Shown in pieces: positions 410 through 51,955 of a stretch of 64,000 bases of DNA. Under the pieces are notes generated by a model. The model was given only the letters and a program-made list of their open reading frames with translations, was not told the origin of the DNA and searched no databases. This stretch comes from an uncultured Flavobacteriales bacterium (lineage in GTDB: Bacteria > Bacteroidota > Bacteroidia > Flavobacteriales > Crocinitomicaceae). Made by a program: the position numbers and the translations under genes. Location of the stretch: positions 37,576-101,575 of the forward strand of contig CAMLRS010000014.1 of the NCBI GenBank assembly GCA_946482515.1, in the 5' to 3' direction. Within the stretch, counting starts at the first letter, position 1, and the number at the start of each line of letters is the position of its first letter.

Positions 410-1183
410 ATGAAAACGATCTTATTGACCTGCCTGCTGCTGTTGATCGGTGGCCAGGTATTTGCCCAGGATGGGAAACTCACGATTAAATGGACCTATC
501 TTAATGTAGTCGAAGGCTTCGATCACGAGAACAAAATTGCCGTCTGGATCGATGGAAACAGAGTAGGAGAATCGGGTTCTTACAAGGAAACGGAAACCGG
601 TACCTACAACTTGACAGTTCCTACAGGTATGCACCGCATTAAAGTGATCGGATATGCCTATTACGAAGGACAATGGGAAGAACATACGATCGAAAACGAT
701 TACTCGGTCGACGCGATCGTGGAGGAAGACTACAGTTTTGCCAAGAAAAACACGCTCACGATCGCCTGGGATATCGACATGGAGAAGACCAAGATTACGT
801 TCAAAGGCGGAAAAGCTCCTAAAGCAAATTCGAAGGAAGAAGGTACCCTGGTTGTCAACTGGGTGTACACGGGTGTTAATGAAGGATACGACCACACCTG
901 CCGTACAAAAGTCTATGTGGATAACAAGCTCGTGGCTACGTCAGGCGAGCAGCTCCAGTCTAAGAAAGGAAAGCTGCAGGTGGCTGTGCCGACCGGGCGT
1001 CACAAGGTGCGTATTGTGAATGAATCGTATTACGAGGGGAAATGGGAGGAACACAAGAAGGAAAACGACTATTCGGTAGACGCTATAACCGAAGAGACGA
1101 TCGAGCTTAAATCGAAAAACACCGTGACAATGATATTCGATATTACATCGGAAGAAACCACTGTCACCTGGGATAAGAAATAG
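410..1183 (+). CDS. Secreted protein with two tandem copies of a ~110-residue domain
   Basis: 257 residues with a clear signal peptide (MKTILLTCLLLLIGGQVFAQ, cut after AQ). The mature part is two homologous units of about 110 residues. Each has a TIKW/VVNW strand, an EG[FY]DH motif, an internal VPTG[MR]H turn, a YYEG[QK]WEEH motif and an ENDYSVDAI motif, and ends in a short strand (LTIAWDI, VTMIFDI). This is an internal duplication of a probable beta-sandwich. I do not recognise the family. It stands alone, with a convergent methyltransferase gene downstream across a long palindrome. Periplasmic or surface location is inferred from the signal peptide; there is no T9SS signal and no lipobox. 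Confidence 0.8.
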   Translation: MKTILLTCLLLLIGGQVFAQDGKLTIKWTYLNVVEGFDHENKIAVWIDGNRVGESGSYKETETGTYNLTVPTGMHRIKVIGYAYYEGQWEEHTIENDYSVDAIVEEDYSFAKKNTLTIAWDIDMEKTKITFKGGKAPKANSKEEGTLVVNWVYTGVNEGYDHTCRTKVYVDNKLVATSGEQLQSKKGKLQVAVPTGRHKVRIVNESYYEGKWEEHKKENDYSVDAITEETIELKSKNTVTMIFDITSEETTVTWDKK

Positions 1184-1188
1184 ATTTT

Positions 1189-1261
1189 AGGACTTTAGGA
1201 TATCAGGACAGAATGACTGGAGACCCCAAAAAGTCCTGAAGTCTTCATATCCTGAAGTCCT
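1189..1261. terminator. Imperfect palindrome between convergent genes (AGGACTTCAGGA words)
   Basis: AGGACTTTAGGATAT at 1189-1203 pairs with ATATCCTGAAGTCCT at 1247-1261 (15 bp with one G-T wobble). A second CAGGAC/GTCCTG stem (1204-1209/1233-1238) lies inside. It sits between two convergent stop codons, where a bidirectional terminator is expected. There is no strong U-tract, so termination is an inference. The words recur at 38899-38920, 40488-40505 and 59059-59094. Confidence 0.55.
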
Positions 1262-1270
1262 GACGTCCAA

Positions 1271-1849
1271 TCAACATTTGGTCTTTCTCGCTATCACAAA
1301 CAATTCCGTGCCCATACGAGGAGCAATGGAATTGAAGCACGGTTCCAGTTTCCAGGTGCAGAAATGCGTTTTGAGGTATTGTTCGTATTCCTGCGTGGAA
1401 CCGCCGAATGGTGGTCCGCCGGGGAAATCGCGGTTAAAAAGTACGCCGACATATTTCCCGTTTTCGGCCAGTAATTCGTACACTTTCGTCACATACTCGA
1501 TGCGGCGTGACGGATGAATGGCACAGAACAGCGTTTGTTCAAGGATGAGGTCGTAGCTGCCGTGGTATTCGAAAAAATCGCCGATAACGATCTTCACCGA
1601 AGGTGCGGCATTGCGTAATCCGGTAACGGCGTCTTCTACCAGATCAATGACCGTTACATCCGTGAATCCGTGCTCGGCAAGGTAATGTGCTTCGTGCCCG
1701 AATCCGCAGCCGGGAATCAGAATGCGAATCGTTTTGTCTTTGAGCTGATCAATGTATTCCTTCAACGGGCGGGAAACCGTTCCGACATCCCATCCTGTTG
1801 CCTGTTCATCGTAGCGTGCCTGCCAGAAATCCTGGTCGAGTTCGTTCAT
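1271..1849 (-). CDS. SAM-dependent methyltransferase, TPMT-like
   Basis: 192 residues. The N-terminus DFWQARYDEQATGWDVGTVSRPLKEYID is the hallmark opening of thiopurine S-methyltransferase-like enzymes (WxxRYxxxxTGWDxG). SAM-binding motif I follows as LIPGCGFGHEA, then the acidic motif II region VTVIDLV and motif IV DLILEQTLFCAI. Such enzymes methylate small thiol or similar acceptors in the cytoplasm; the substrate here is unknown. The start codon overlaps the stop of the upstream HD-hydrolase gene by four bases (ATGA), so the two are translationally coupled. The length is normal for the family. Confidence 0.85.
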   Translation of the reverse strand: MNELDQDFWQARYDEQATGWDVGTVSRPLKEYIDQLKDKTIRILIPGCGFGHEAHYLAEHGFTDVTVIDLVEDAVTGLRNAAPSVKIVIGDFFEYHGSYDLILEQTLFCAIHPSRRIEYVTKVYELLAENGKYVGVLFNRDFPGGPPFGGSTQEYEQYLKTHFCTWKLEPCFNSIAPRMGTELFVIARKTKC

Positions 1850-2457
1850 GGCGTCAATGTATTAAGTTCCCATTCCAGGTTGATATGCGCTTGCTGTTCA
1901 CACCTGTCGCGGAACAAATCCGTTTTATAAATAATTCCGTTTCCTAACAGATGTTTCAGCACAGCAGCTCTGCCGGGATTGTACAATTCATCCGGATACA
2001 TCGCGTATTCCTTCCGAATGTCAGCTGCGTACTGGCGGTATGTTTCCGGATCGCTTCCGAGTGTAGCGAGATCGGCATCGATGAATAGGTTCGTATCAGC
2101 CGAATCACTGGCTTCGTGGCGTTTGGTTGCCAAAATGTGTTGCACGCAGCGGGCTATCGTGTTTTCATGAAAACCAGCTTCTGTTAACCGAATCCGGGCC
2201 AGCTCGGCGCTCTGTTCTTCGTTGTCTTTAGCGGTCGGATCGTAGATCGCATCGTGGTAAAAAGCCGCCAGCCAGATGGCATTCGCATCATCGAACGCAG
2301 GCACCATTTCCAGGTTTTGGATCACGGCAGCAATGTGCTCCAGCGTGTGGTAAAATCGCCCCGGCTCGTTATAATGCGTTTCCAGTTCCAGCCAGTAGTT
2401 TTCGATAGCAATAGCCGAATTGGTTTGCTGAAAAAGGGAAGTGAACAACTGTTTCAT
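1846..2457 (-). CDS. HD-superfamily metal-dependent phosphohydrolase (COG4339-like)
   Basis: 203 residues from the ATG at 2457. A longer frame opens 27 codons upstream, but its N-terminal extension overlaps the lipoprotein gene and looks non-native. The HD metal ligands are visible: FYHTLEHI near residue 38 and AAFYHDAIYDP near 68, with later acidic residues in the ATKRHEASDSADTNLFIDADL segment. This is the pattern of predicted HD phosphohydrolases; the substrate is unknown. The gene is followed by the methyltransferase with an ATGA overlap and preceded by the lipoprotein gene 11 bases away, so all three probably form one transcript. Confidence 0.8.
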   Translation of the reverse strand: MKQLFTSLFQQTNSAIAIENYWLELETHYNEPGRFYHTLEHIAAVIQNLEMVPAFDDANAIWLAAFYHDAIYDPTAKDNEEQSAELARIRLTEAGFHENTIARCVQHILATKRHEASDSADTNLFIDADLATLGSDPETYRQYAADIRKEYAMYPDELYNPGRAAVLKHLLGNGIIYKTDLFRDRCEQQAHINLEWELNTLTP

Positions 2458-2468
2458 GCTGAAGCTGT

Positions 2469-2912
2469 TCACGGGCAAACCGTTTTGATGAGCACAGGCC
2501 CGGCATTGAATTTCAGCTTGTCGGGATTGCTGAACCACATTTTGCCGTTTTTCTCGGTCATTTCGCCCGTTCCGTCGCGGAAAGTCGTTCCTTTTTTCTT
2601 GAAAGCCACTTGCCGGCGGGAAATCACGCCTTCCGACCGGAATGTGTAATCGGCCAGGAGCACGTCTTCGCGCATGCTGCCTACAATTGTTCCTGAATTG
2701 CGGTCTTTGCCGTCGAGCTGGTAAATGAGCTTGCCGGAAACCGAGCCGTTTTTCTCACGCAGGTTGAGCAAAATGGTGTCGCCATTGCCGGTGTAAACAT
2801 AGCAACCAGTCACGCTGCTTTTGATGGTGGAAATGCCTTTGTCGCGCTGCACGGGATTTCCCGAACAGGCCACACAACCAAGCACAAAGCTGAATACCAG
2901 GAGCCGTTTCAT
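2469..2912 (-). CDS. Small predicted lipoprotein, unknown function
   Basis: 147 residues. The N-terminus MKRLLVFSFVLGCVACSGN is a lipoprotein signal with a VAC lipobox. The mature part contains GCYVYTGNGDTILLNLREKNGSVSGKLIYQLDGKDRNSGTI-like beta-strand alternation typical of small all-beta lipoproteins, and a TGEMTEKNGKMWFSNPDKLKF tail (quoted in pieces). I do not recognise the family with certainty. It is the first gene of a likely three-gene minus-strand transcript with the HD hydrolase and the methyltransferase. The 58-base gap to the epimerase gene upstream leaves room for its own promoter. Confidence 0.75.
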   Translation of the reverse strand: MKRLLVFSFVLGCVACSGNPVQRDKGISTIKSSVTGCYVYTGNGDTILLNLREKNGSVSGKLIYQLDGKDRNSGTIVGSMREDVLLADYTFRSEGVISRRQVAFKKKGTTFRDGTGEMTEKNGKMWFSNPDKLKFNAGPVLIKTVCP

Positions 2913-2970
2913 CGCGTTCTTTTGTTAAATGTAAGTGGATTCCTGTTCAATTCCAATCCGCTTGAGCGGA

Positions 2971-3885
2971 TTATTGCTTTACGAGATTTTCAAGGCATTT
3001 TTCGATGGTCGGAAACGCAAAGTTAAAACCGGCTTGTTGCAAACGGGCCGGCAGCACGAAGCGGCTTTTGAGGATCAATTCGGTTTCTGTTCCGATGAGC
3101 TTTGCCCCGAATTCCAGCAGCCATTTCGGTTGCGGAATGCCGAAAGGAACGCGTAGACGATTACGCAGAACGCGTAGAAAATGGTCGTTCGTCACCGGAT
3201 TTGGCGCGCTCAGGTTGTAAACACCGGAAGTTGCTTCGTTTTCGATGAGAAAAGCGATCGCCCGGCACACATCGCGTTCGTGGATCCAGCTGAATTGCTG
3301 ATCGCCGTTGCCCATTTTGCCGCCCAATCCGAATCGGACAAGACGTTTGAACGGCGTCATAACACCGCCGGTTTGTCCCAGGACGATAGCTGTTCGCAGA
3401 ACGATCTGTCGCGTTTCCGGTTGTTTGTAGGTGGCAAAACAGGCTTCCCATCGCTGACAAACATCGACGGAAAAACCCGTGCCGATGATGCCGTTTTCTT
3501 CCGTATTCGGACGATCGGTTGAATGAGCGTAAATCGTTGCGCTGGCAGCGTTGATCCAGACTTTTGGCTTGTTGGCACACAAACGGATTGCTTCACCGAT
3601 TGCTGCCGTGCTTTCCAGTCGGGAAGCGTAAATGGCCGCTTTGTTTTCTTCGTTATAGCGGCAATTAACGGATTTCCCGGCGAGGTTGATCACGGCCAGC
3701 GCACCGTCTAAATCGACCGACCAGCTGCCCACGGTATGTCCGTCCCAGACCCGGTATTTGACATCAGCAGTAGAAGCTTGCGGTTTGCGCACCAGGGCGA
3801 CGATACGGTAATGTTCTTTGAAAAAATCGACTAAGCTGCGACCGATAAAGCCGTTGGCGGCAGCGATAACAATGGTGGGTTTCAT
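2971..3885 (-). CDS. TIGR01777-family NAD(P)-dependent epimerase/dehydratase-like protein
   Basis: 304 residues. The Rossmann opening is IAAANGFIGRSL near residue 7. The substrate-domain segment GALAVINLAGKSVNCRYNEENK is the TIGR01777 signature (LAG..I..RW). Next come the extended-SDR catalytic region and the C-terminal DUF1731 segment (PFGIPQPKWLLEFGAKLIGTETELILKSRFVLP, in parts). Family members (YfcH in E. coli) are cytoplasmic and of unclear substrate. The start overlaps the stop of the DCC-protein gene by four bases, so both belong to the cluster next to the GbsR-type regulator. Confidence 0.88.
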   Translation of the reverse strand: MKPTIVIAAANGFIGRSLVDFFKEHYRIVALVRKPQASTADVKYRVWDGHTVGSWSVDLDGALAVINLAGKSVNCRYNEENKAAIYASRLESTAAIGEAIRLCANKPKVWINAASATIYAHSTDRPNTEENGIIGTGFSVDVCQRWEACFATYKQPETRQIVLRTAIVLGQTGGVMTPFKRLVRFGLGGKMGNGDQQFSWIHERDVCRAIAFLIENEATSGVYNLSAPNPVTNDHFLRVLRNRLRVPFGIPQPKWLLEFGAKLIGTETELILKSRFVLPARLQQAGFNFAFPTIEKCLENLVKQ

Positions 3886-4709
3886 AGGGCAAAAGCAAAA
3901 GGGTAAATCAATAAACGGAAAACAATCCAGGAAACACTCAGCCAGCCGCTGATGTGGAGTAATTGGAGGCGACGCATGTGTTCATAGAACATGAACAGGT
4001 AAACCAGGCCGTAGCAGAAAGGCTGCAGCATTTCGGTGCTCATCCCGACGAAGTTCAGGAACGTCAGTCCGAGGTGGAAGAACAACAGGAGCAAGCCACC
4101 CAGCAAACTGATGAAAGCGAGATTGCCGGCATAATCAGCGAAGCCGTTTCGGTGAAACAATCGGAAAACCAGGAACTGGAACCCGAATTGTGCGAGGAAT
4201 AATACGAGATCGGTATAAACCGGGTGACCGATGAAATAGTCTCCGAGCTGTTGTGTAAAATAAATACCCGTCGTGAGGTTCACGATCCAGCAGCAGAAAG
4301 CAATGAAAGCGATCCGCCAGCTAATGGAAAGGGTAGGAGCACAAGCGCAGCGATCGTTGCAATCGGACGGAGCGACCATTTTCCGGTTGTAGCTGATGAA
4401 GCTGTACAATTGTTCCAGCAACCAGTGAATACCCGGCAGACGGCCAATTTTGGGAATGAGCGGAAAACGGTTGCCCAAAACGGTCAACAAACTGTCGACG
4501 CCGTATTCGACTGTTCCTTTCACCGGATCGACCAGCGCGATCTTGTTGCGGGAAACGGTGATGTCGAATGTCAATCCGGGTTGTTCGACGGCTTCGCTGT
4601 AGGGGAGGCGCCCGGCAGGAGCAAGGAAACCATGACGAATGAAAGCACCTGTATACCAGTTACACAGCGGACAGTCTTTGTCGTAAAGCAGAATGTGTGT
4701 CGGTTTCAT
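3882..4709 (-). CDS. DCC-family (DUF393) thiol-disulfide-oxidoreductase-like membrane protein
   Basis: 275 residues from the ATG at 4709. The upstream alternative would cover the palindrome at 4733-4750, so it was rejected. The start LLYDKDCPLCNWYTGAF is the DCC motif with its CxxC pair. The first ~130 residues form the DUF393 domain. The rest is a membrane part with about four hydrophobic segments (for example WRIAFIAFCCWIVNLTTG, LVLFLAQFGFQFLVF and FISLLGGLLLLFFHLG). The redox role is suggested by the CxxC only. It overlaps the epimerase gene by four bases and is preceded by a palindrome also found at the GbsR gene start, so control by that regulator is likely. Confidence 0.85.
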   Translation of the reverse strand: MKPTHILLYDKDCPLCNWYTGAFIRHGFLAPAGRLPYSEAVEQPGLTFDITVSRNKIALVDPVKGTVEYGVDSLLTVLGNRFPLIPKIGRLPGIHWLLEQLYSFISYNRKMVAPSDCNDRCACAPTLSISWRIAFIAFCCWIVNLTTGIYFTQQLGDYFIGHPVYTDLVLFLAQFGFQFLVFRLFHRNGFADYAGNLAFISLLGGLLLLFFHLGLTFLNFVGMSTEMLQPFCYGLVYLFMFYEHMRRLQLLHISGWLSVSWIVFRLLIYPFAFAL

Positions 4710-4732
4710 AAAGCTAATTTTAGTTTCTAAAC

Positions 4733-4750
4733 TTTCAATAAAAATTGAAA
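4733..4750. promoter_or_regulatory. Palindromic operator upstream of the DCC/epimerase genes
   Basis: TTTCAATAAAAATTGAAA: two perfect 7-bp arms (TTTCAAT/ATTGAAA) around AAAA, 24 bases upstream of the DCC start codon. It matches the site at 5317-5334, in front of the GbsR/MarR gene, at 16 of 18 positions. A site of this size and symmetry suits a dimeric MarR-fold regulator. Confidence 0.7.
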
Positions 4751-4760
4751 TACCCAATCA

Positions 4761-4787
4761 AAAAGAAACGGCTCTTTTGCCGCTTCG
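4761..4787 (-). terminator. Intrinsic terminator after the GbsR-type gene
   Basis: On the minus strand an AAGCGGC stem, AAAAGA loop and GCCGTTT stem are followed by CTTTTT. It lies eight bases past the regulator stop and before the operator of the next gene, so the regulator and the DCC/epimerase pair are probably separate transcripts. Confidence 0.7.
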
Positions 4788-4794
4788 TGTTTTC

Positions 4795-5298
4795 TTATTT
4801 AAAGAACTGAATGATCTTCCCGAAGAAGACATGCTCGTCAGCTTTCATCAACGTATCAGATAATCCATCGAGACGGGAAACCAGTCGTTGCAGGTCGGTG
4901 ATCGTATCGGTGAAAGCTTCTTTTTCTGCTGAGTCCGGACCTTCTACAGCTGACAATTCAGCCAGGTGTTGTTGCAAAGGTTCGATCTCACGGCGTTTGC
5001 GCTCTTTGGTAATGCGTTTGGCGATTTCCCACACATCTTTTTCAGCACGGAAATACTCGCGACGATCGCCCGGAAACGTTTCCTTGTAAACCAGGTTCCA
5101 GTTCATCAGCTCGCGGATGTTCATATTAGCGTTCCCGCGAGAAATGGAGAGTGTTTCCATGATTTCCTCCGTGCAAAGCGACTTAGTACTGGTCAGCAGC
5201 AGGGCATGCACCTGGGCCATCGAGCGGTTAATTCCCCACTGGGAACCGAAGTTCCCCCAGAGCTGAATGAATTGTTGTTTTGCTGTTTCGAGTTCCAT
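4795..5298 (-). CDS. GbsR/MarR-family transcription regulator
   Basis: 167 residues. A winged-helix core is visible: MAQVHALLLTSTKSLCTEEIMETLSISRGNANMNIRELMNWNLVYK (in parts), where LSISRGNANMNIREL is the recognition helix typical of GbsR-like COG1510 proteins. The wing contains ETFPGDRREYFRAEKDVW. The helical C-terminus is probably for dimerisation. In Bacteroidota this family is often found beside DCC and TIGR01777 genes, as here. An 18-bp palindrome plus an extra half-site lies directly upstream of its start codon, pointing to autoregulation. The ligand is unknown. Confidence 0.9.
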   Translation of the reverse strand: MELETAKQQFIQLWGNFGSQWGINRSMAQVHALLLTSTKSLCTEEIMETLSISRGNANMNIRELMNWNLVYKETFPGDRREYFRAEKDVWEIAKRITKERKRREIEPLQQHLAELSAVEGPDSAEKEAFTDTITDLQRLVSRLDGLSDTLMKADEHVFFGKIIQFFK

Positions 5299-5299
5299 A

Positions 5300-5334
5300 T
5301 TTCAAATATACAGAATTTTCAATAATATTTGAAA
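5300..5334. promoter_or_regulatory. GbsR promoter/operator: 18-bp palindrome plus half-site
   Basis: TTTCAATAATATTTGAAA at 5317-5334 is nearly the same as the site before the DCC gene (16/18). A further half-site TTTCAAATAT at 5300-5309 is perfectly inverted to ATATTTGAAA at 5325-5334. On the minus strand the half-site contains TATATTTG (5303-5310), a match to the Bacteroidota -7 element TAnnTTTG, just before the ATG. A regulator bound here would block its own promoter. Confidence 0.7.
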
Positions 5335-5373
5335 GTTTTGAATTGTTTTTTCATACAACTCAATTTAGTTGAG

Positions 5374-5462
5374 GGACAGCCTCCTCCCTTGAGGACTGAG
5401 GAAGGTGGTTTTCTAATAGAATCGTGCTGGCCACCCCCTTTTATTCCCCCTCAAGGGGGAAG
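5374..5462. repeat. CCTCAAGG-type palindromic element after the B12 operon
   Basis: Contains CCTCCTCCCTTGAGGACTGA, GGAAGGTGG/CCACCCCCTT and a perfect TTCCCCC-TCAA-GGGGGAA hairpin (5444-5461) four bases beyond the stop of the last B12-operon gene. A related piece (CCCCCTTTGGAGAAGGATGA) lies at 46387-46406. It probably acts as the 3' boundary of the operon, but no U-tract follows. Confidence 0.55.
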
Positions 5463-5465
5463 CAG

Positions 5466-6446
5466 TTATAAAAGTCGAATCAACTGCCGAACGGCCTTTC
5501 CACTCGCGTTTTCCGCCACAACGAAGTAAACGCCTTTGTCCAGCTCTTGCGAGAAAGAAAACGTGCTGTTATCGGTATGCTCATACGTACTCACGAGCTG
5601 GCCCATCGCATTCATAACGGAAACGGTAGCTGTTCCAGGGAGTGCTAAGCTAAAATGATCGCTTGCCGGATTTGGATACAACTGCACCGCGAGCTCGTTT
5701 TCTTCCACATTGAGGAAAACATTGATCACGCCAACGGCATCAAGATCGAAACCACAGGAGGAAAATGGGGTTGGATACGGATCGTTGATCACAGTGTCGT
5801 TCTGGTCGGTTGTACCCGTTCCGGTAATGGCACCAATGGCGTCGATGATGCGGATGTGCGTGATCATTTCAGTGTTCAGCAAAGCATCAACAGGCAGGTC
5901 GGCGAGATCGAAAGGTGTTCCGAAACCGCGCTTGTATTTGCCAGCCAGGTTGTTCACATAACGGCAATCGGAGGTGGAAGAATTGCTGAGCTGTACATCC
6001 GTCGGGATTTCCGAGGTGGACGGGAAACGGAAAAAATGAACGCCGTCGCTGCTCACTTCTACATGACCCAATTCCATGTAATGATCCACAAATCCGTTTT
6101 CGAAAATGGCAAAGTCAAAGCCCGGACCGTCAGTGATCAGCTGGTCGAACGTCAGGGTTACGATGCCGCTGTCGCCCAACGAAACAGCGGAAGTGATATC
6201 GCCCTCAGCCGGTCCGAACGCGTTTTCGATGGAACCAAACGTAGCACGATTGCTGTCGTCGAATTCCATTGTCGTGTCATTGATATCGATGTAGCCGCGT
6301 GAAATCGTTCCGTTGGTTGCCCAGGCGATAAAGCAGGAGCTGTCTTTCGGAATAGCCGTTGAGCCCGGCTGACCGTATTCCGGGGCGAATGATTGTGCTG
6401 CCGCAGCAAAGGGCAGGAGAGAAAGTATAAAAAGGATCTTATTCAT
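5466..6446 (-). CDS. T9SS-sorted surface protein, last gene of the B12 operon
   Basis: 326 residues. Signal peptide MNKILFILSLLPFAAAAQ. The mature domain has PEYGQPGSTAIPKDSSCFIAWA, GGSVTLTF-like strands and the motif DGPGFDFAIFENGF, which I associate with a surface-protein family often encoded beside BtuB-like receptors. The last ~85 residues are a T9SS type A sorting domain (VQLYPNPASDHFSLALPG, then KGVYFVVA and KAVRQLIRLL). It should therefore be exported by T9SS and anchored at the cell surface. Its start overlaps the beta-propeller gene stop by eight bases, so it is the fourth member of the riboswitch operon. A role in cobalamin capture is inference from context only. Confidence 0.8.
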   Translation of the reverse strand: MNKILFILSLLPFAAAAQSFAPEYGQPGSTAIPKDSSCFIAWATNGTISRGYIDINDTTMEFDDSNRATFGSIENAFGPAEGDITSAVSLGDSGIVTLTFDQLITDGPGFDFAIFENGFVDHYMELGHVEVSSDGVHFFRFPSTSEIPTDVQLSNSSTSDCRYVNNLAGKYKRGFGTPFDLADLPVDALLNTEMITHIRIIDAIGAITGTGTTDQNDTVINDPYPTPFSSCGFDLDAVGVINVFLNVEENELAVQLYPNPASDHFSLALPGTATVSVMNAMGQLVSTYEHTDNSTFSFSQELDKGVYFVVAENASGKAVRQLIRLL

Positions 6447-40697: not shown

Positions 40698-42107
40698 TTG
40701 GCAACAAAAATCAAATTCGGAACAGACGGTTGGCGCGCGATCATCGCGGAGGAATTCACAACCGAAAATGTCGCACGCGTAGCATACGCAACAGCGCAAT
40801 GGCTTAAAACTTCAGGACATCCGCAACGCATCGCTCTTGGGCATGATTGTCGTTTTGCAGGTGAATTGTTTGCCGAAACGGCGGCCAAAGTGTTGCTGAA
40901 CGAAGGCATCGAAGTAAAAATGTCGCGTGGTTTTGTTTCTACACCTATGATCTCCCTGGCGGCTGTTCAGCTTTCCTGCGGATTGGGTGTGATCATTACG
41001 GCAAGTCACAACCCGCCAGGCTATAACGGTTACAAGCTGAAAGCGCATTTTGGCGGACCGCTGCAACCGGAAAAAGTACAGGAAATCGAAGACATCATTC
41101 CGGAAGCCGTTCCGTTTGATTATGCAGCGATTTCACTCGACAGTTATATTCAATCCGGTAAGCTCGAGATCGTTGATTTCGAAACGCGTTATGTACAGCA
41201 TATTGAAGCGAATTTCGACCTGGAAGCGATCCGTAAATCCGGGCTGAATCTGGTGTATGACGCCATGTACGGCGCTGGTCAGAATGTGATCCGTCGCATT
41301 TTGCCGGATGTGCAACTGCTGCACTGCGAGCACAATCCTTCATTCTACGGACAGGCTCCCGAGCCGATTGCCAAAAACCTGCAACCGCTCGAGCGTTATA
41401 TCCGTGAGAAGGGAAACATCGACTGCGCGCTGGCTACGGATGGCGATGCGGATCGTATCGGACTCTACAACGGAAAAGGCGAATTCATCGATTCTCATCA
41501 TATTATCCTGCTGTTGATGCACTACCTGGTGAAATACAAAGGACTGAGCGGTAAAGCCGTTACAGCTTTCAGTACGACACCGCGTGTGGGCAAAATGGCA
41601 CAACACTACGGCTTGCCGTTCGAAGTGGTGAAAATCGGCTTCAAATACATTGCCGGCCTCATGGTCGAAGAAGACGTGCTGATCGGCGGCGAAGAATCGG
41701 GTGGTATTGCTGTGAAAGGCCATATTCCTGAGCGCGACGGGATTTGGATGGGACTTATCGTCTGGGAATTCCTCGCGAAATCCGGCAAAACGCTCGACCA
41801 GCTGATCGAAGAAGTGTACGAGATCGTTGGTGCTTTCAAATTTGAACGGAACGACTTACACATTACGGAATCATTGAAGCAACAGATTGTAGCGAATTGT
41901 AATTCAGGAAGCTACAAGACTTTTGGTAAATACACCGTGAGCGAGCTGCAAACCATCGACGGCTGGAAGTATTTCTTCGACAGCGATCGCTGGGTGATGA
42001 TTCGTGCTTCCGGAACCGAGCCGGTGCTCCGTACGTACGCTGAAGCACCTACGATGGAGGAAGTCCGCGAAATCCTCAAGATTACGGAACAAACGATCTG
42101 CAACTGA
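40698..42107 (+). CDS. Phosphoglucomutase/phosphomannomutase family protein
   Basis: 469 residues with TTG start at 40698 giving [17 protein letters not shown], the usual N-terminus of this subfamily. Phosphoserine loop [13 protein letters not shown] with Ser103, metal loop [12 protein letters not shown] near residue 246, [19 protein letters not shown] near 331 (sugar specificity) and [14 protein letters not shown] near 435. It interconverts hexose-1- and hexose-6-phosphates in the cytoplasm. The preference for glucose or mannose cannot be fixed. Its stop shares one base with the aroC start (TGATG). Confidence 0.88.
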
Positions 42108-46935: not shown

Positions 46936-48798
46936 ATGAATTATTTATCGGTTGAAAATCTCACCAAATCGTTTGGTGACCGTATCCTGTTTAAAGACCT
47001 GACCTTCGGGATCGATCTCGGACAAAAGGTAGCCATTGTTGCGAAAAACGGCAGTGGAAAAACGACTTTGCTGCGCTGTCTGATGGACATCGAGCCGTAT
47101 GATAGCGGCCGCATCGTTTACCGGAACGACATTCGCATCGCGTTCATGGAACAAAGCGAGAACCTCGACGAAAACCATACGATCCTAGAAGCTGTTTTTG
47201 CCCACGATCTCCCGGAAATACAAGCGGTAAAACGCTATAACCAGGCGCTCCGAAACGGCGATGAAGAAGCGGTGAATGACTGTTTTCAGTTGCTTACGGA
47301 GCTCAACGCCTGGGATGTCGAAGTACGTGTGAACCAGATTCTCAGCGTGCTGAAGCTCGACAATACCAATCTGAAGATCGCCAGTCTTTCCGGTGGACAG
47401 AAAAAACGCGTGGCGCTGGCAAAAGTCCTCGTTGCTGAAGCTGATTTTCTGCTGCTGGATGAGCCTACCAATCACCTCGATCTCGATATGATCGAATGGC
47501 TGGAAGAATACCTGTCGAAATCCAAATCCACCATCCTGATGGTGACCCACGACCGCTACTTCCTCGAAGTGGTGTGCGATACGATCCTGGAGCTTGAAGA
47601 CCAGACGATTTACCGCTACAAAGGCAATTTCTCGTATTACCTCGATAAAAAAGCCGAACGCCAGGAGCAATTGCAATCGACGATCGATAAGGCGCGGAAT
47701 ACGTTTAAAAAAGAACTGGAATGGATCCGTCGTCAGCCGAAAGCTCGTGGGACCAAGCAAAAAGCGCGCATCGAGTCGTTCCAGGACGTCAAGAAAGTTG
47801 CCAGTCAGCGCATCAACGAAGACGAGATCGATATTCCGGTAAAAATGGAACGCCTCGGCACCAAGATCGTGGAACTACACAAGATCAGCAAGGCGTTTGG
47901 CGATAAACAAATCCTGGATTCGTTCTCCTACCATTTCAACCGTCGCGAGCGTTTGGGAGTCGTAGGAAACAACGGAACGGGCAAGTCCACGTTTCTGAAT
48001 GTCATCCAGGGATTGGAACCACTCGACGGTGGTAAAGTCGTGATCGGCGACACAGTTGTGTTTGGCTATTACAGCCAGGAGTTGATCCAGGTCGACGATT
48101 CCAAAAAAGTGATCGATGTGATCCGCGACATCGCCGAGTTCATTCCGCTTGAAAAAGGACGCCAGCTGTCGGCTGCGCAATTCCTGGAAAAATTCCTGTT
48201 CCCACGCGACATGCACTACAATTACGTGTACAAGCTCAGCGGGGGAGAAAAGCGCCGTTTGAAGCTCATGACCGTGCTGATGGCCAATCCGAATTTCCTG
48301 ATTCTCGACGAGCCGACCAACGACCTCGATATCTTCGTGATGAGCGTGCTGGAAGACTATCTGCGCACCTTCGAAGGCTGCCTGATTGTTGTTTCACACG
48401 ACCGTTACTTCATGGATAAAATGGTCGATCATGTGTTTGTGTTCGAAGGAAACGGAAAGATCAAAGATATCCTGGGCAATTATACCGAATACCGCAAACA
48501 GCTCACGGATGACAAACGCGCTGCAAAAGCCGAACAGAAAAGTGAACCTGCGAAAGTTGTGCAACCGGTTGTTCAGGCAGAAAAGAAAAAGCTGTCGTTC
48601 AAGGAAAAACAGGAATTCGAACAGCTGGAAAAAGACCTCGAACGCTTCGAAGAAGAAAAACTGGCTTATACGGCCATTCTTTCCGACGGTGCATCAACCA
48701 ATGAAGCGATCATGGAAGCGGGAACGAAGCTCGCTGAAATCGTCACGAAAATCGACGCGGCAACGGAGCGCTGGATGGAGCTGGCAGAATACGTTTAA
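46936..48798 (+). CDS. uup: ABC-F ATPase, Uup type
   Basis: 620 residues, no membrane span. Two ABC domains: Walker A VAKNGSGKTTLLR and GNNGTGKSTFLN; signature LSGGQKKRVALAK and LSGGEKRRLKL; Walker B LLLDEPTNHLDLD and LILDEPTNDLDIF. A linker with RRQPKARGTKQKARI lies between them. The C-terminal ~90 residues form a charged coiled coil (KLSFKEKQEFEQLEKDLERF), the mark of Uup rather than EttA. ABC-F proteins act on the ribosome; Uup is linked to ribosome rescue or DNA transposition stability. Two bases after the DUF4293 gene. Confidence 0.9.
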   Translation: MNYLSVENLTKSFGDRILFKDLTFGIDLGQKVAIVAKNGSGKTTLLRCLMDIEPYDSGRIVYRNDIRIAFMEQSENLDENHTILEAVFAHDLPEIQAVKRYNQALRNGDEEAVNDCFQLLTELNAWDVEVRVNQILSVLKLDNTNLKIASLSGGQKKRVALAKVLVAEADFLLLDEPTNHLDLDMIEWLEEYLSKSKSTILMVTHDRYFLEVVCDTILELEDQTIYRYKGNFSYYLDKKAERQEQLQSTIDKARNTFKKELEWIRRQPKARGTKQKARIESFQDVKKVASQRINEDEIDIPVKMERLGTKIVELHKISKAFGDKQILDSFSYHFNRRERLGVVGNNGTGKSTFLNVIQGLEPLDGGKVVIGDTVVFGYYSQELIQVDDSKKVIDVIRDIAEFIPLEKGRQLSAAQFLEKFLFPRDMHYNYVYKLSGGEKRRLKLMTVLMANPNFLILDEPTNDLDIFVMSVLEDYLRTFEGCLIVVSHDRYFMDKMVDHVFVFEGNGKIKDILGNYTEYRKQLTDDKRAAKAEQKSEPAKVVQPVVQAEKKKLSFKEKQEFEQLEKDLERFEEEKLAYTAILSDGASTNEAIMEAGTKLAEIVTKIDAATERWMELAEYV

Positions 48799-48859: not shown

Positions 48860-50746
48860 CTAATTATTATAGATTCGGACCTGTTTAATATACAACTGCC
48901 GCGTTTCCTTGTCCAGCTTGAATTCCATGTCGAGACCAAATTCTTCATACTGTTCACCCGGCTTGCGCTTGTAATGGTGCTTCCAGTAATATTTTTTGAT
49001 GCGCTCCAATTCGGTTTGCAGTAATTCCAGCTCTTCTTTCGACATCACCAGTTGACCGTTTTCCGTGAGATTGGAGGTCGTAATGACTTCGATTGTGCTT
49101 TGAAAGCCCGATAATTCATTCGCCGGATACAACACCAGCTGATCGCAGATCACGCCCGGTTCCGGAGCCACCACGCTGGCATCGCCAAGCTGCACGTTGA
49201 CTACAAATCCTGCATACGAAGCGCGGTAAACGTTTTCTGTAATTGCTACGCCATTTGCTGCTTCGTCGGGAAAGGAACGGTGAACGAGAATACCCATCGC
49301 AATGTCTTCCTGCGCAATGTGGTAAAAGCTGCGCTCCATATAAGCTTCATACGACCACAGGCTGGCCCAGACCTTTTGCAAAGCTTCTTCGGCTGTTTTG
49401 CCCGGATCGGTGAGATCGACGGTTTTCGAGTCGTACAGACCCGCGCCTGAGAAACCGGCTGCGTCTTCGGCGTTGGTCGACGAACGGAAACGGAACGTCA
49501 GATAGCCTGATTGCGTTAGTCGCTGGTGAATGAGCGAACGCAATGCCGAATCAATGGAAGTATTCCTGATTGCATCGCGGATGGTTTTCAAAGCGGCTTT
49601 TAAGGAATCCTGATCGGTCGGTGGATGAGCTACCAGCTTCGCAATCAGTTTTTCGGCGCCGGATCGCCCAAGGTGTTGTTCGTAGCGTGCAAACGGAATA
49701 GCAAAAGATGCTTCGGGAGTTTTGTAACGACCATTCTTTGCGAGCTTTACCAGGAGACCGAAATTAGCGGCTTTGTTTCCCACAGTTCCTGCCAAAGCAG
49801 GTGAGAGGTTCTCACCGCTGATCAACGAATCGATCTCGAGGTTTTTCCGCAAATGAATCGAAGGAACCGTAGCCACAGAGCCCGTTTCACTGGCTGTTGG
49901 AATGATCTGGAACGTATCGGAAGTGATAATCAGTCGTACCCATTGACGATCGAGCTTTTGCAGCACCGGATTTTCAAACGCTTTGGTCGAAACGGCGATC
50001 GGCACGCCCCGGTTTTGCCCCAGGATTACTAAATGGCTCAACGGTGTCTGGATTTCGGTCAAAACCATCCCACGCACAAGTGGAAGATACTGTGGCGTTT
50101 TGGTCGTAATGAGAATATCGTTCGGTTGCAAAGGCTCGGAAAGCGAATCCAGCGATGCTTCCAGTCGCAGACGGCCGCTTACGTTGCCTTCCGAGATGGA
50201 TTGGAAATCGAGCCGGGCATAAATATCGGCCGGAGTGGCGGTCGCAATTTGCTTGCTGAGCGATTCCCGCAATTTCATCAAGCGATCGGTATTGAGCAGG
50301 AAAACCAGTTTTTCACCGCTGAACATGCTCGATTTTACCGCTTTAAACAATTGCACGATGCGTTCTTCGGGCATGAGATCGAACACCGACAAATCGATGT
50401 AATAGCTGTTGGAAGCTTCATTCCAGTTGACGTTCGCCAGCAGGTAATCGCGGTGTCCCGATTTGCTGTAATTCAGTTCGTTGAAGATCGTCAGATCGTA
50501 GGAACAACCCAGCTGCCGCGTTGCAAAATCGTAATGGTAGCGGTACAGATAGGACTGTATATAATACAGTTTTTTAGTCGACGTTTCGAGGATCACTTTC
50601 ACCGAGGCCACATCGCCGTATTTGGAGCTCAGCGGTTTGCCGGCCAGCTTGCGAAAAGCCGCTTCCGACGTCACAGACGTGGTAAATTTCTGTGCAGAGC
50701 AAATAACAGGCAGCAAGAGCAAGAATGTGAAAGCAAGGTATTTCAT
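48860..50746 (-). CDS. Exported PPDK/GWD-like protein: swivel domain before ATP-binding domain
   Basis: 628 residues from the ATG at 50746. Signal peptide MKYLAFTFLLLLPVICSAQ. Residues ~205-285 look like a phosphohistidine swivel domain: LTEIQTPLSHLVILGQNRGV with His238 (compare LSH in glucan water dikinases and TSH/TCHAA in PEP synthase). Residues ~320-628 are a PEP/pyruvate-binding ATP-grasp domain: GNKAANFG with Lys324, FRSSTNAEDAAGFSGAGLYD (Arg421), and GLDMEFK with Glu608 followed by IKQVR with Gln622. The order swivel-then-ATP domain is that of plant GWD, not of PpsA or PPDK. The N-terminal ~185 residues are unassigned. The substrate is unknown. Export of a phosphotransferase that needs ATP is odd. 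Head-to-tail with a desaturase gene 81 bases upstream. Confidence 0.8.
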   Translation of the reverse strand: MKYLAFTFLLLLPVICSAQKFTTSVTSEAAFRKLAGKPLSSKYGDVASVKVILETSTKKLYYIQSYLYRYHYDFATRQLGCSYDLTIFNELNYSKSGHRDYLLANVNWNEASNSYYIDLSVFDLMPEERIVQLFKAVKSSMFSGEKLVFLLNTDRLMKLRESLSKQIATATPADIYARLDFQSISEGNVSGRLRLEASLDSLSEPLQPNDILITTKTPQYLPLVRGMVLTEIQTPLSHLVILGQNRGVPIAVSTKAFENPVLQKLDRQWVRLIITSDTFQIIPTASETGSVATVPSIHLRKNLEIDSLISGENLSPALAGTVGNKAANFGLLVKLAKNGRYKTPEASFAIPFARYEQHLGRSGAEKLIAKLVAHPPTDQDSLKAALKTIRDAIRNTSIDSALRSLIHQRLTQSGYLTFRFRSSTNAEDAAGFSGAGLYDSKTVDLTDPGKTAEEALQKVWASLWSYEAYMERSFYHIAQEDIAMGILVHRSFPDEAANGVAITENVYRASYAGFVVNVQLGDASVVAPEPGVICDQLVLYPANELSGFQSTIEVITTSNLTENGQLVMSKEELELLQTELERIKKYYWKHHYKRKPGEQYEEFGLDMEFKLDKETRQLYIKQVRIYNN

Positions 50747-50827: not shown

Positions 50828-51955
50828 TCATGCTTCTTGGGAACGCGGTTTTCTTCCCAGTCTTTTCAGCATTTTGACGTGTCCGCGAAGGGCTTTCCAG
50901 AAGGTGCTTTCTACGTGATAAGTTACACCGAATTCAGCTGCAGTTTGTTGAACGATTGGAGCAAGCTTTGGATAATGGACGTGACAGATTCCGGTAAATA
51001 AATGGTGTTCGATCTGGTAATTCAACCCGCCGATAAACCAGGTGAGAAAGCCTTTTCCGGGCGCAAAGTCGCTCGTGTTTTCTACTTCGTGAATGGCCCA
51101 GGTGTCTTCCATCTCGTGTTTTCCGTCTGTTTCTACCGGTAGCTCAAATGTGGACGATTCTACGACGTGCGAAGGCTGAAAAATACAGGAAAGCACCAGC
51201 CCGGCTGTGAAGTGCATGAACAGGAATCCCAATAATACATGGTACCACGCCATTCCGGAAAAAAGAATGGGCAATACGATCACATAGCTGTAATAAAAGA
51301 TCTTGTACAGGCTTATTCTGAAGATCGCTTGTCCCAACGAAACATGGTGGCGCACGAGCAGATCGTGTTGCTTGTAGCGAACCACTTGTAAGTAGTCTTT
51401 CGCAGTCATCCAGTAAAGCGTCATCATCATGTAAAAGAACCACGCATACAGGTATTGATAGCGGTGAAACCAGTAATACGGCTGGCGTGGCGAAAAGCGC
51501 AGGTATTTGATGCTGTCAAGGTCTTCGTCCAGTCCGGCGATGTTGGTGTACGTGTGGTGAAGCTGGTTATGCTGGATTTTCCAGGTAACGGTGTAGCCGC
51601 CGATGATCTCCAGTATGGAACCGATAAACGTGTTGACTTTCTGGTTCGGAGAATAAGTCCCGTGATTGGCGTCGTGCATCACAGAAGTGCCGATGCCGAT
51701 CATTCCCCAGCCCATCAGGAACCAACAACCGAAAAACAGCCATAGACTGTCCGATGTAGCACCTGAAACCATGATTCCATAAGGAGCAAAATAGAGCGAC
51801 AGCATGACGAATGTTTTTAGCCACATTTTTCCATTAGCATAAGGAGAAAGTCCTTTTTCTCTGAAATAAGTGTTCACCCGGGCAATGATCGTTTCGTGGA
51901 AATTGCCTTTGCCTGCGCGGGCGAATTGAACTGTTTTTAAGGTTTTTGCGGTCAC
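50828..51955 (-). CDS. Membrane fatty-acid desaturase, second paralogue
   Basis: 375 residues. His boxes HDANHGTYS near residue 93, HNQLHHTYTN near 128 and QIEHHLFTGI near 312. Four or more hydrophobic helices (MLSLYFAPYGIMVSGATSDSLW, LFFGCWFLMGWGMIGIG, YVIVLPILFSGMAWYHVLLG). Same front-end-type layout as 37668-38819 but clearly diverged, so the two may act at different positions or chain lengths. The basic C-terminal tail KMLKRLGRK resembles the MKRLGKP tail of the other protein. It precedes the dikinase-like gene on the same strand; a shared transcript is possible. Confidence 0.92.
   Translation of the reverse strand: MTAKTLKTVQFARAGKGNFHETIIARVNTYFREKGLSPYANGKMWLKTFVMLSLYFAPYGIMVSGATSDSLWLFFGCWFLMGWGMIGIGTSVMHDANHGTYSPNQKVNTFIGSILEIIGGYTVTWKIQHNQLHHTYTNIAGLDEDLDSIKYLRFSPRQPYYWFHRYQYLYAWFFYMMMTLYWMTAKDYLQVVRYKQHDLLVRHHVSLGQAIFRISLYKIFYYSYVIVLPILFSGMAWYHVLLGFLFMHFTAGLVLSCIFQPSHVVESSTFELPVETDGKHEMEDTWAIHEVENTSDFAPGKGFLTWFIGGLNYQIEHHLFTGICHVHYPKLAPIVQQTAAEFGVTYHVESTFWKALRGHVKMLKRLGRKPRSQEA

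Follow-up and report, generated by a model that had tools for sequence, protein, structure and literature searches.

The phosphohistidine dikinases are usually regarded as cytosolic or plastid enzymes that depend on ATP. Plant phosphoglucan, water dikinase (PWD, or GWD3) carries a swivel domain with an LSH motif N-terminal to its C-terminal ATP-grasp domain, and a starch-binding module at the N-terminus is regarded as defining both PWD and glucan, water dikinase (GWD). The histidine domain is central in phosphoenolpyruvate (PEP) synthase and pyruvate phosphate dikinase (PPDK), and in rifampin phosphotransferase the ATP domain comes first and the histidine domain is C-terminal, as described in PMC4844700. 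PMC12167813 describes rifampin phosphotransferase and the two-component dikinases (HpeHI) as enzymes that phosphorylate small molecules, rifampin and phenolics among them. The subject of this work is an exported phosphohistidine dikinase-like gene (48860..50746, reverse strand, ATG start, 628 amino acids) found in a 64,000-nucleotide stretch of an uncultured Flavobacteriales bacterium of the Crocinitomicaceae (assembly GCA_946482515.1, contig CAMLRS010000014.1, positions 37,576 to 101,575), hereafter the window. The gene belongs to a family of exported, swivel-first and apparently active dikinases which, judged by sequence, would work like PWD and GWD.

The original prediction, made from the letters of the window, was of an exported protein with a swivel followed by an ATP-grasp domain, and this observation was confirmed. 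All parts lie on the reverse strand. A signal peptide (residues 1-19, ending in VICSAQ; 50690..50746), assigned by direct reading of the sequence and from the signal-like stretch in relatives, precedes an N-terminal domain with no confident match to a known fold (residues 20-177; 50216..50689). The phosphohistidine swivel domain follows (residues 178-284; 49895..50215), in which the His238 codon (QTPLSHL; 50033..50035) specifies the predicted phosphohistidine, and the protein closes with the ATP-grasp (PPDK_N) domain (residues 304-628; 48863..49837). The latter holds the ATP-loop lysine Lys325 (GNKAANF; 49772..49774), the signature RFRSSTNAED…SGAGLYDS (residues 419-440; 49427..49492), which is common to PWD and not to PEP synthase, and two metal ligands predicted from the superfamily, Glu608 (48923..48925) and Gln622 (48881..48883).

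The constancy of the active site was surveyed in 168 rows (120 database proteins and 48 open reading frames from the loci, covering both subfamilies, with some genes counted twice). His238 was present in 166 rows with two gaps, Lys325 in all 168, Glu608 in 166 with two gaps, and Gln622 in 164 with four gaps. Gaps but no substitutions were likewise the only departures at H71, R421, S423, N425, E427, D428, G434, A435, W464, R472, K610 and R624. Variation was confined to R246 (157 R, 8 D, 1 N), L437 (7 I), H489 (1 N) and R419 (1 K) among the positions reported. Compared with a close relative (L001) by the NG86 method, residues 205-612 gave a dN of 0.099 and a dS of 1.41 at 86% identity, and residues 1-209 a dN of 0.169 and a dS of 1.11 at 76% identity, amounting to a dN/dS of about 0.07-0.15. 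Both halves of the protein are under purifying selection, which counts against a relic gene.

Export was called from a signal-like N-terminal stretch, by a simple hydropathy rule and not by SignalP. Of the 120 listed proteins, 108 had such a stretch, the window protein being one of them, and 40 had a lipobox-like motif; none of the PEP-synthase controls (0/12) carried a signal-like stretch. A sister subfamily, detected at E ~1e-76, adds a second kind of export signal, the sorting domain of the type IX secretion system (T9SS; PF18962/TIGR04183). It scored above the curated cut-off in two 838-residue members (L010 and L022), in a scan where two longer sister forms ended at the locus edge, and was present in all five full-length long forms scanned; these long forms reach 1312-1337 amino acids, with CARDB and SprB-type repeats. 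Of the 120 proteins listed for L022, 117 had the same domain precomputed; the named sources in that list were Fluviicola, Crocinitomicaceae, Saprospiraceae and Flavobacteriales. Since these T9SS-tailed members retain the ATP domain, with the swivel still ahead of it, dikinase-like proteins appear to cross the outer membrane. A Pfam scan of the window protein returned no T9SS sorting domain; the members of its subfamily probably stay in the periplasm or are held by a lipid anchor. The predicted export is thus well supported by these sequence features, and in many Bacteroidota an intact enzyme, resembling in its build those that phosphorylate starch in plants, seems to leave the cytoplasm.

The swivel-first arrangement had been likened to that of the plant enzymes, and this likeness held. 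The plant comparison set consisted of PWD only (10 sequences of 120 listed), GWD1 being left out. The ten aligned PWD sequences carry LPHLSHLGVRARQE N-terminal to the ATP domain, and the profile of the window family matched PWD collinearly across swivel and ATP domain (436 columns, probability 99.5, E 6.3e-23), as did that of the T9SS subfamily less strongly (probability 97.8, E 1.1e-12); these profile-profile comparisons were made with PWD and not with PEP synthase. An ATP loop of the form RS[ST]-x-N-x-ED followed by [GA]AGLY-x-S was common to 17 window-family, 5 T9SS-subfamily and 10 PWD rows, in contrast to the RSSA[TS][AS]ED and SFAG found at the same site in 12 PEP-synthase-type rows. The Pfam model GWD1_pHisD gave matches at E<=1 in 12 of the 27 members scanned, the strongest at 9.9e-6, with no match in the window protein itself, and was precomputed for 2 of the 120 listed relatives. 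Neither outcome that would have told against the original prediction, a lack of any significant swivel match or an ATP domain grouping with PEP synthase, was seen: in an ATP-domain tree of 48 rows and 335 columns, the exported, T9SS and PWD sequences stood together against the PEP synthases with a support of 97/90. Forcing PWD to join PEP synthase nevertheless costs only 6.35 log units (approximately unbiased (AU) test, p 0.072), so that this alternative is not rejected, and long branches meet at that very split. Every group stayed single in two smaller trees, which cannot test the split because they were rooted on PEP synthase, and a hidden Markov model of the PWD ATP domain was non-discriminating, with 49-105 bits on PEP synthases and 57-77 on the window family. 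The kinship of the ATP domain to PWD is therefore favoured, not proven, by domain order and signature, the tree alone being insufficient.

The window family shares the ATP-grasp and swivel folds with PEP synthase and PPDK; in those enzymes, however, the histidine domain comes after the ATP domain, and the order is here reversed, as it is relative to rifampin phosphotransferase and the small-molecule dikinases, which run from the ATP domain through a central substrate domain to the histidine domain. No PEP/pyruvate barrel was found in the Pfam scan of the window protein. Unlike the plant enzymes, the window protein is bacterial, exported and 628 residues long, with another N-terminal domain, and a Pfam scan at E<=1 gave no carbohydrate-binding or starch-binding module. 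As no starch-binding part was found and a glucan substrate is hypothetical, we do not file the family as GWD/PWD. Residues H71, N89, N92, Y93, N105 and N107 of the N-terminal domain were invariant across 27 sequences.

The gene neighbourhood shows two further associations. Directly upstream of the long T9SS form, and on the same strand, stands a gene whose product has the RHxE motif and begins with a signal-like or lipobox-like stretch; it was present in all 16 long-form loci (15 genomes), of which seven came from a search of 148 genomes of the order Flavobacteriales and nine from a search of 200 genomes of the closest relative's family, with one locus ending at a contig edge (L016) and one carrying an in-frame stop (L013). 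The gap between the two genes was below 260 bp in 14 of the 16 and 343 bp in L145; in L013 (L034 in the table of open reading frames), the phosphatase gene lies 26 bp from the intact start of the split dikinase gene. Pfam His_Phos_1 was matched by all five upstream genes scanned (8.8e-11 to 7.2e-14), and no upstream phosphatase gene was found at the nine loci of the short T9SS form (828-856 amino acids). For the long T9SS form, the phosphatase-dikinase operon is firmly established. The interrupted gene of L013/L034 (genome G054) may be broken, and one genome (G093) has two long-form genes (L011 and L017), each with one phosphatase gene.

The second association concerns DUF4956, a membrane protein whose gene PMC7112168 locates next to pel genes, along with those for CotH and a polyphosphate polymerase. 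Among 36 loci compared (31 of the window form and 5 of the T9SS form), a DUF4956 gene stood tail-to-tail with the dikinase gene in eight, their ends lying -3 to +47 bp apart. Six of these loci are in long synteny, and L027 and L028 share no cluster with them over four genes on each side; on this ground, the pair is kept in three backgrounds. Among 17 genomes holding either dikinase form, all contain DUF4956 and nine contain the polyphosphate polymerase VTC, the eight without VTC being exactly those whose single DUF4956 abuts the dikinase; seven of the eight genomes having this pair gave no CotH match. The other nine DUF4956 loci read had VTC in every case (directly beside in eight) and CotH in four. 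Across the 148 Flavobacteriales-order genomes, every one of the 44 with VTC also has DUF4956, and nine have DUF4956 without VTC, the dikinase adjoining it in four and not in five; a CotH gene is near DUF4956 in two of those five. A CotH-LTD-T9SS gene lies divergently next to the dikinase gene at three of the 36 loci, which are syntenic (L111, by Pfam; L113 and L128, by similarity). As their genomes hold 6-8 CotH genes, the chance of such adjacency is small but real. Several of the genomes also encode exported CotH kinases with T9SS tails, which, like the dikinases, occur as neighbours of DUF4956. The CotH fold is unrelated to that of the dikinases. We regard the link of the dikinase to DUF4956 and CotH as a good lead, not proof. 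At loci L130-L138, L140 and L141, DUF4956 stands beside VTC, often near a T9SS-tailed CotH and a DUF2490 outer-membrane protein, forming a recurrent envelope module. In G613:C30 and G634:C33, the contig of the dikinase gene also bears DUF4956, about 9 kb away, and L143 has a T9SS-tailed alpha-amylase-like gene and a sulfotransferase-like gene (845-3607 and 4336-5697) near a DUF4956 without VTC.

The architecture, the constant active site, the purifying selection and the two kinds of export signal are computational observations, and the reading that we favour, and hold to be probable, is that of a catalytically intact phosphohistidine dikinase working outside the cytoplasm on a putative surface or periplasmic acceptor. 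By analogy with the superfamily, the C-terminal ATP-grasp domain would bind a nucleotide, presumably ATP, and phosphorylate His238 of the swivel, which may then turn and transfer its phosphoryl group to an acceptor bound at the N-terminal domain, with AMP and Pi as the expected overall products. Type IX secretion would carry the sister subfamily over the outer membrane; the exported histidine phosphatase encoded next door might reverse what the dikinase does, and the dikinase could share one machinery for envelope phosphorylation with DUF4956, VTC and CotH. A much bolder and rather speculative proposal is a Bacteroidota extracytoplasmic phosphorylation circuit, in which the DUF4956 module, with VTC where present, would supply energy-rich phosphate beyond the inner membrane, CotH and the swivel-first dikinase would use it, and exported histidine phosphatases would reverse it.

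Several points weigh against these proposals. ATP is scarce outside the cytoplasm. Of the 36 dikinase loci, 28 have no adjacent DUF4956, 33 have no CotH (in a single-sequence search of low sensitivity) and none has VTC, and neither DUF4956, CotH nor the phosphatase was found among the window genes scanned. The links to DUF4956 and CotH stem from a minority of loci in few lineages, and the phosphatase gene goes only with the long T9SS form and not, as far as scanned, with the window's subfamily. Moreover, DUF4956 is present in 160 of the 200 genomes of the closest relative's family, and because it is so common, its co-occurrence with the dikinase says little.

The lack of a known ATP supply outside the cytoplasm would suit a pseudo-enzyme, in which the exported dikinase fold keeps binding, perhaps as a sensor of nucleotide, phosphate or polyphosphate, and no longer transfers, and the weak score of the swivel in a Pfam scan of the single window sequence points the same way. 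A mere binder, however, would have no need of a phosphohistidine, and His238, Lys325, Arg421, Glu427, Asp428, Glu608 and Gln622 are all unsubstituted in the survey; with the low dN/dS, this makes the lost activity kept for binding, which the original prediction had also entertained, unlikely, and the phosphatase gene accompanying the long T9SS form argues against it as well. Another alternative places the difference on the donor side, with polyphosphate or some other phosphate carrier, and not ATP, charging the exported dikinase; we consider it improbable.

We also doubt that the protein is a true bacterial glucan or glycan water dikinase acting on an extracellular polysaccharide with its N-terminal domain as the glycan binder, a role that had been suggested for that part of the protein. 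The PWD order, the ATP-loop signature and the tree would fit, as would sugar-related genes some kilobases off, namely a phosphoglucomutase/phosphomannomutase gene in the window (40698-42107, about 6.8 kb from the dikinase gene) and glucosamine-6-phosphate isomerase/PIG-L in L025; the AU test, on the other hand, leaves PWD free to join PEP synthase, no glucan gene adjoins the dikinase in the loci scanned, the window included, and the proposed glycan binder yielded neither a Pfam carbohydrate-binding module nor a confident match in the fold comparison of that domain. That export has been misread, and that a cytoplasmic enzyme merely has a hydrophobic N-terminus, is very improbable: a clear signal-like stretch is missing from 12 of the 120 listed proteins, yet several of these look start-misplaced or truncated by reading, and the lipobox-like motifs and the T9SS tails of the sister subfamily speak for export.

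In the window, a fatty-acid desaturase gene (50828-51955) lies upstream of the dikinase gene on the same strand; as it is missing beside the gene in the closest relative (L037), it is no stable partner. Downstream and convergent lies an ABC-transporter-type ATPase gene (46936-48798), followed by those for DUF4293 and an NDH-2-type oxidoreductase. At seven other loci (L119, L120, L122-L125 and L129), the dikinase gene is directly 3' of a gene that we take to be YaaA-like, with an SLC13-like transporter gene nearby in several.

The best match in named genomes was a Flavobacteriales metagenome-assembled genome, whose best segment was 84% identical in protein sequence, and the named relatives of the window protein among the matches listed belong to Fluviicola, Flavobacteriia and Bacteroidales. 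Counted at 1e-30, matches occur in at least 9 of 395 Bacteroidota genomes, at least 12 of the 148 genomes of the order Flavobacteriales (that of G002; five of the window form and seven of the T9SS form) and at least 43 of the 200 genomes of the closest relative's family, both forms counted; these are lower bounds because the first look scored only 3 to 8 candidates per genome. The family is broad, as the 120th listed relative still scores E 1.4e-156 for the window subfamily and 1.5e-245 for the T9SS subfamily. The totals of 2713 matches (window query) and 4202 matches (L022 query), out of some 8000 candidates scored in each case, should not be read as family sizes; other PPDK_N proteins may be counted in them. 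In six Bacteroidota genomes (G180, G253, G192, G216, G167 and G224), PPDK_N genes of about 1060, 590 and 1010 amino acids stand close together in twos or threes.

According to PMC12892837, no high-resolution structure is available for the PWD class of enzymes; the family supplies small bacterial relatives of that class, together with a lead to the function of DUF4956. The breadth of the family, its intact active site and its two kinds of export signal raise the question of the energy source for phosphorylation outside the bacterium, and, if the circuit outlined above were true, it would provide a first case of a phosphohistidine dikinase at work beyond the cytoplasm, perhaps one not fed by ATP.
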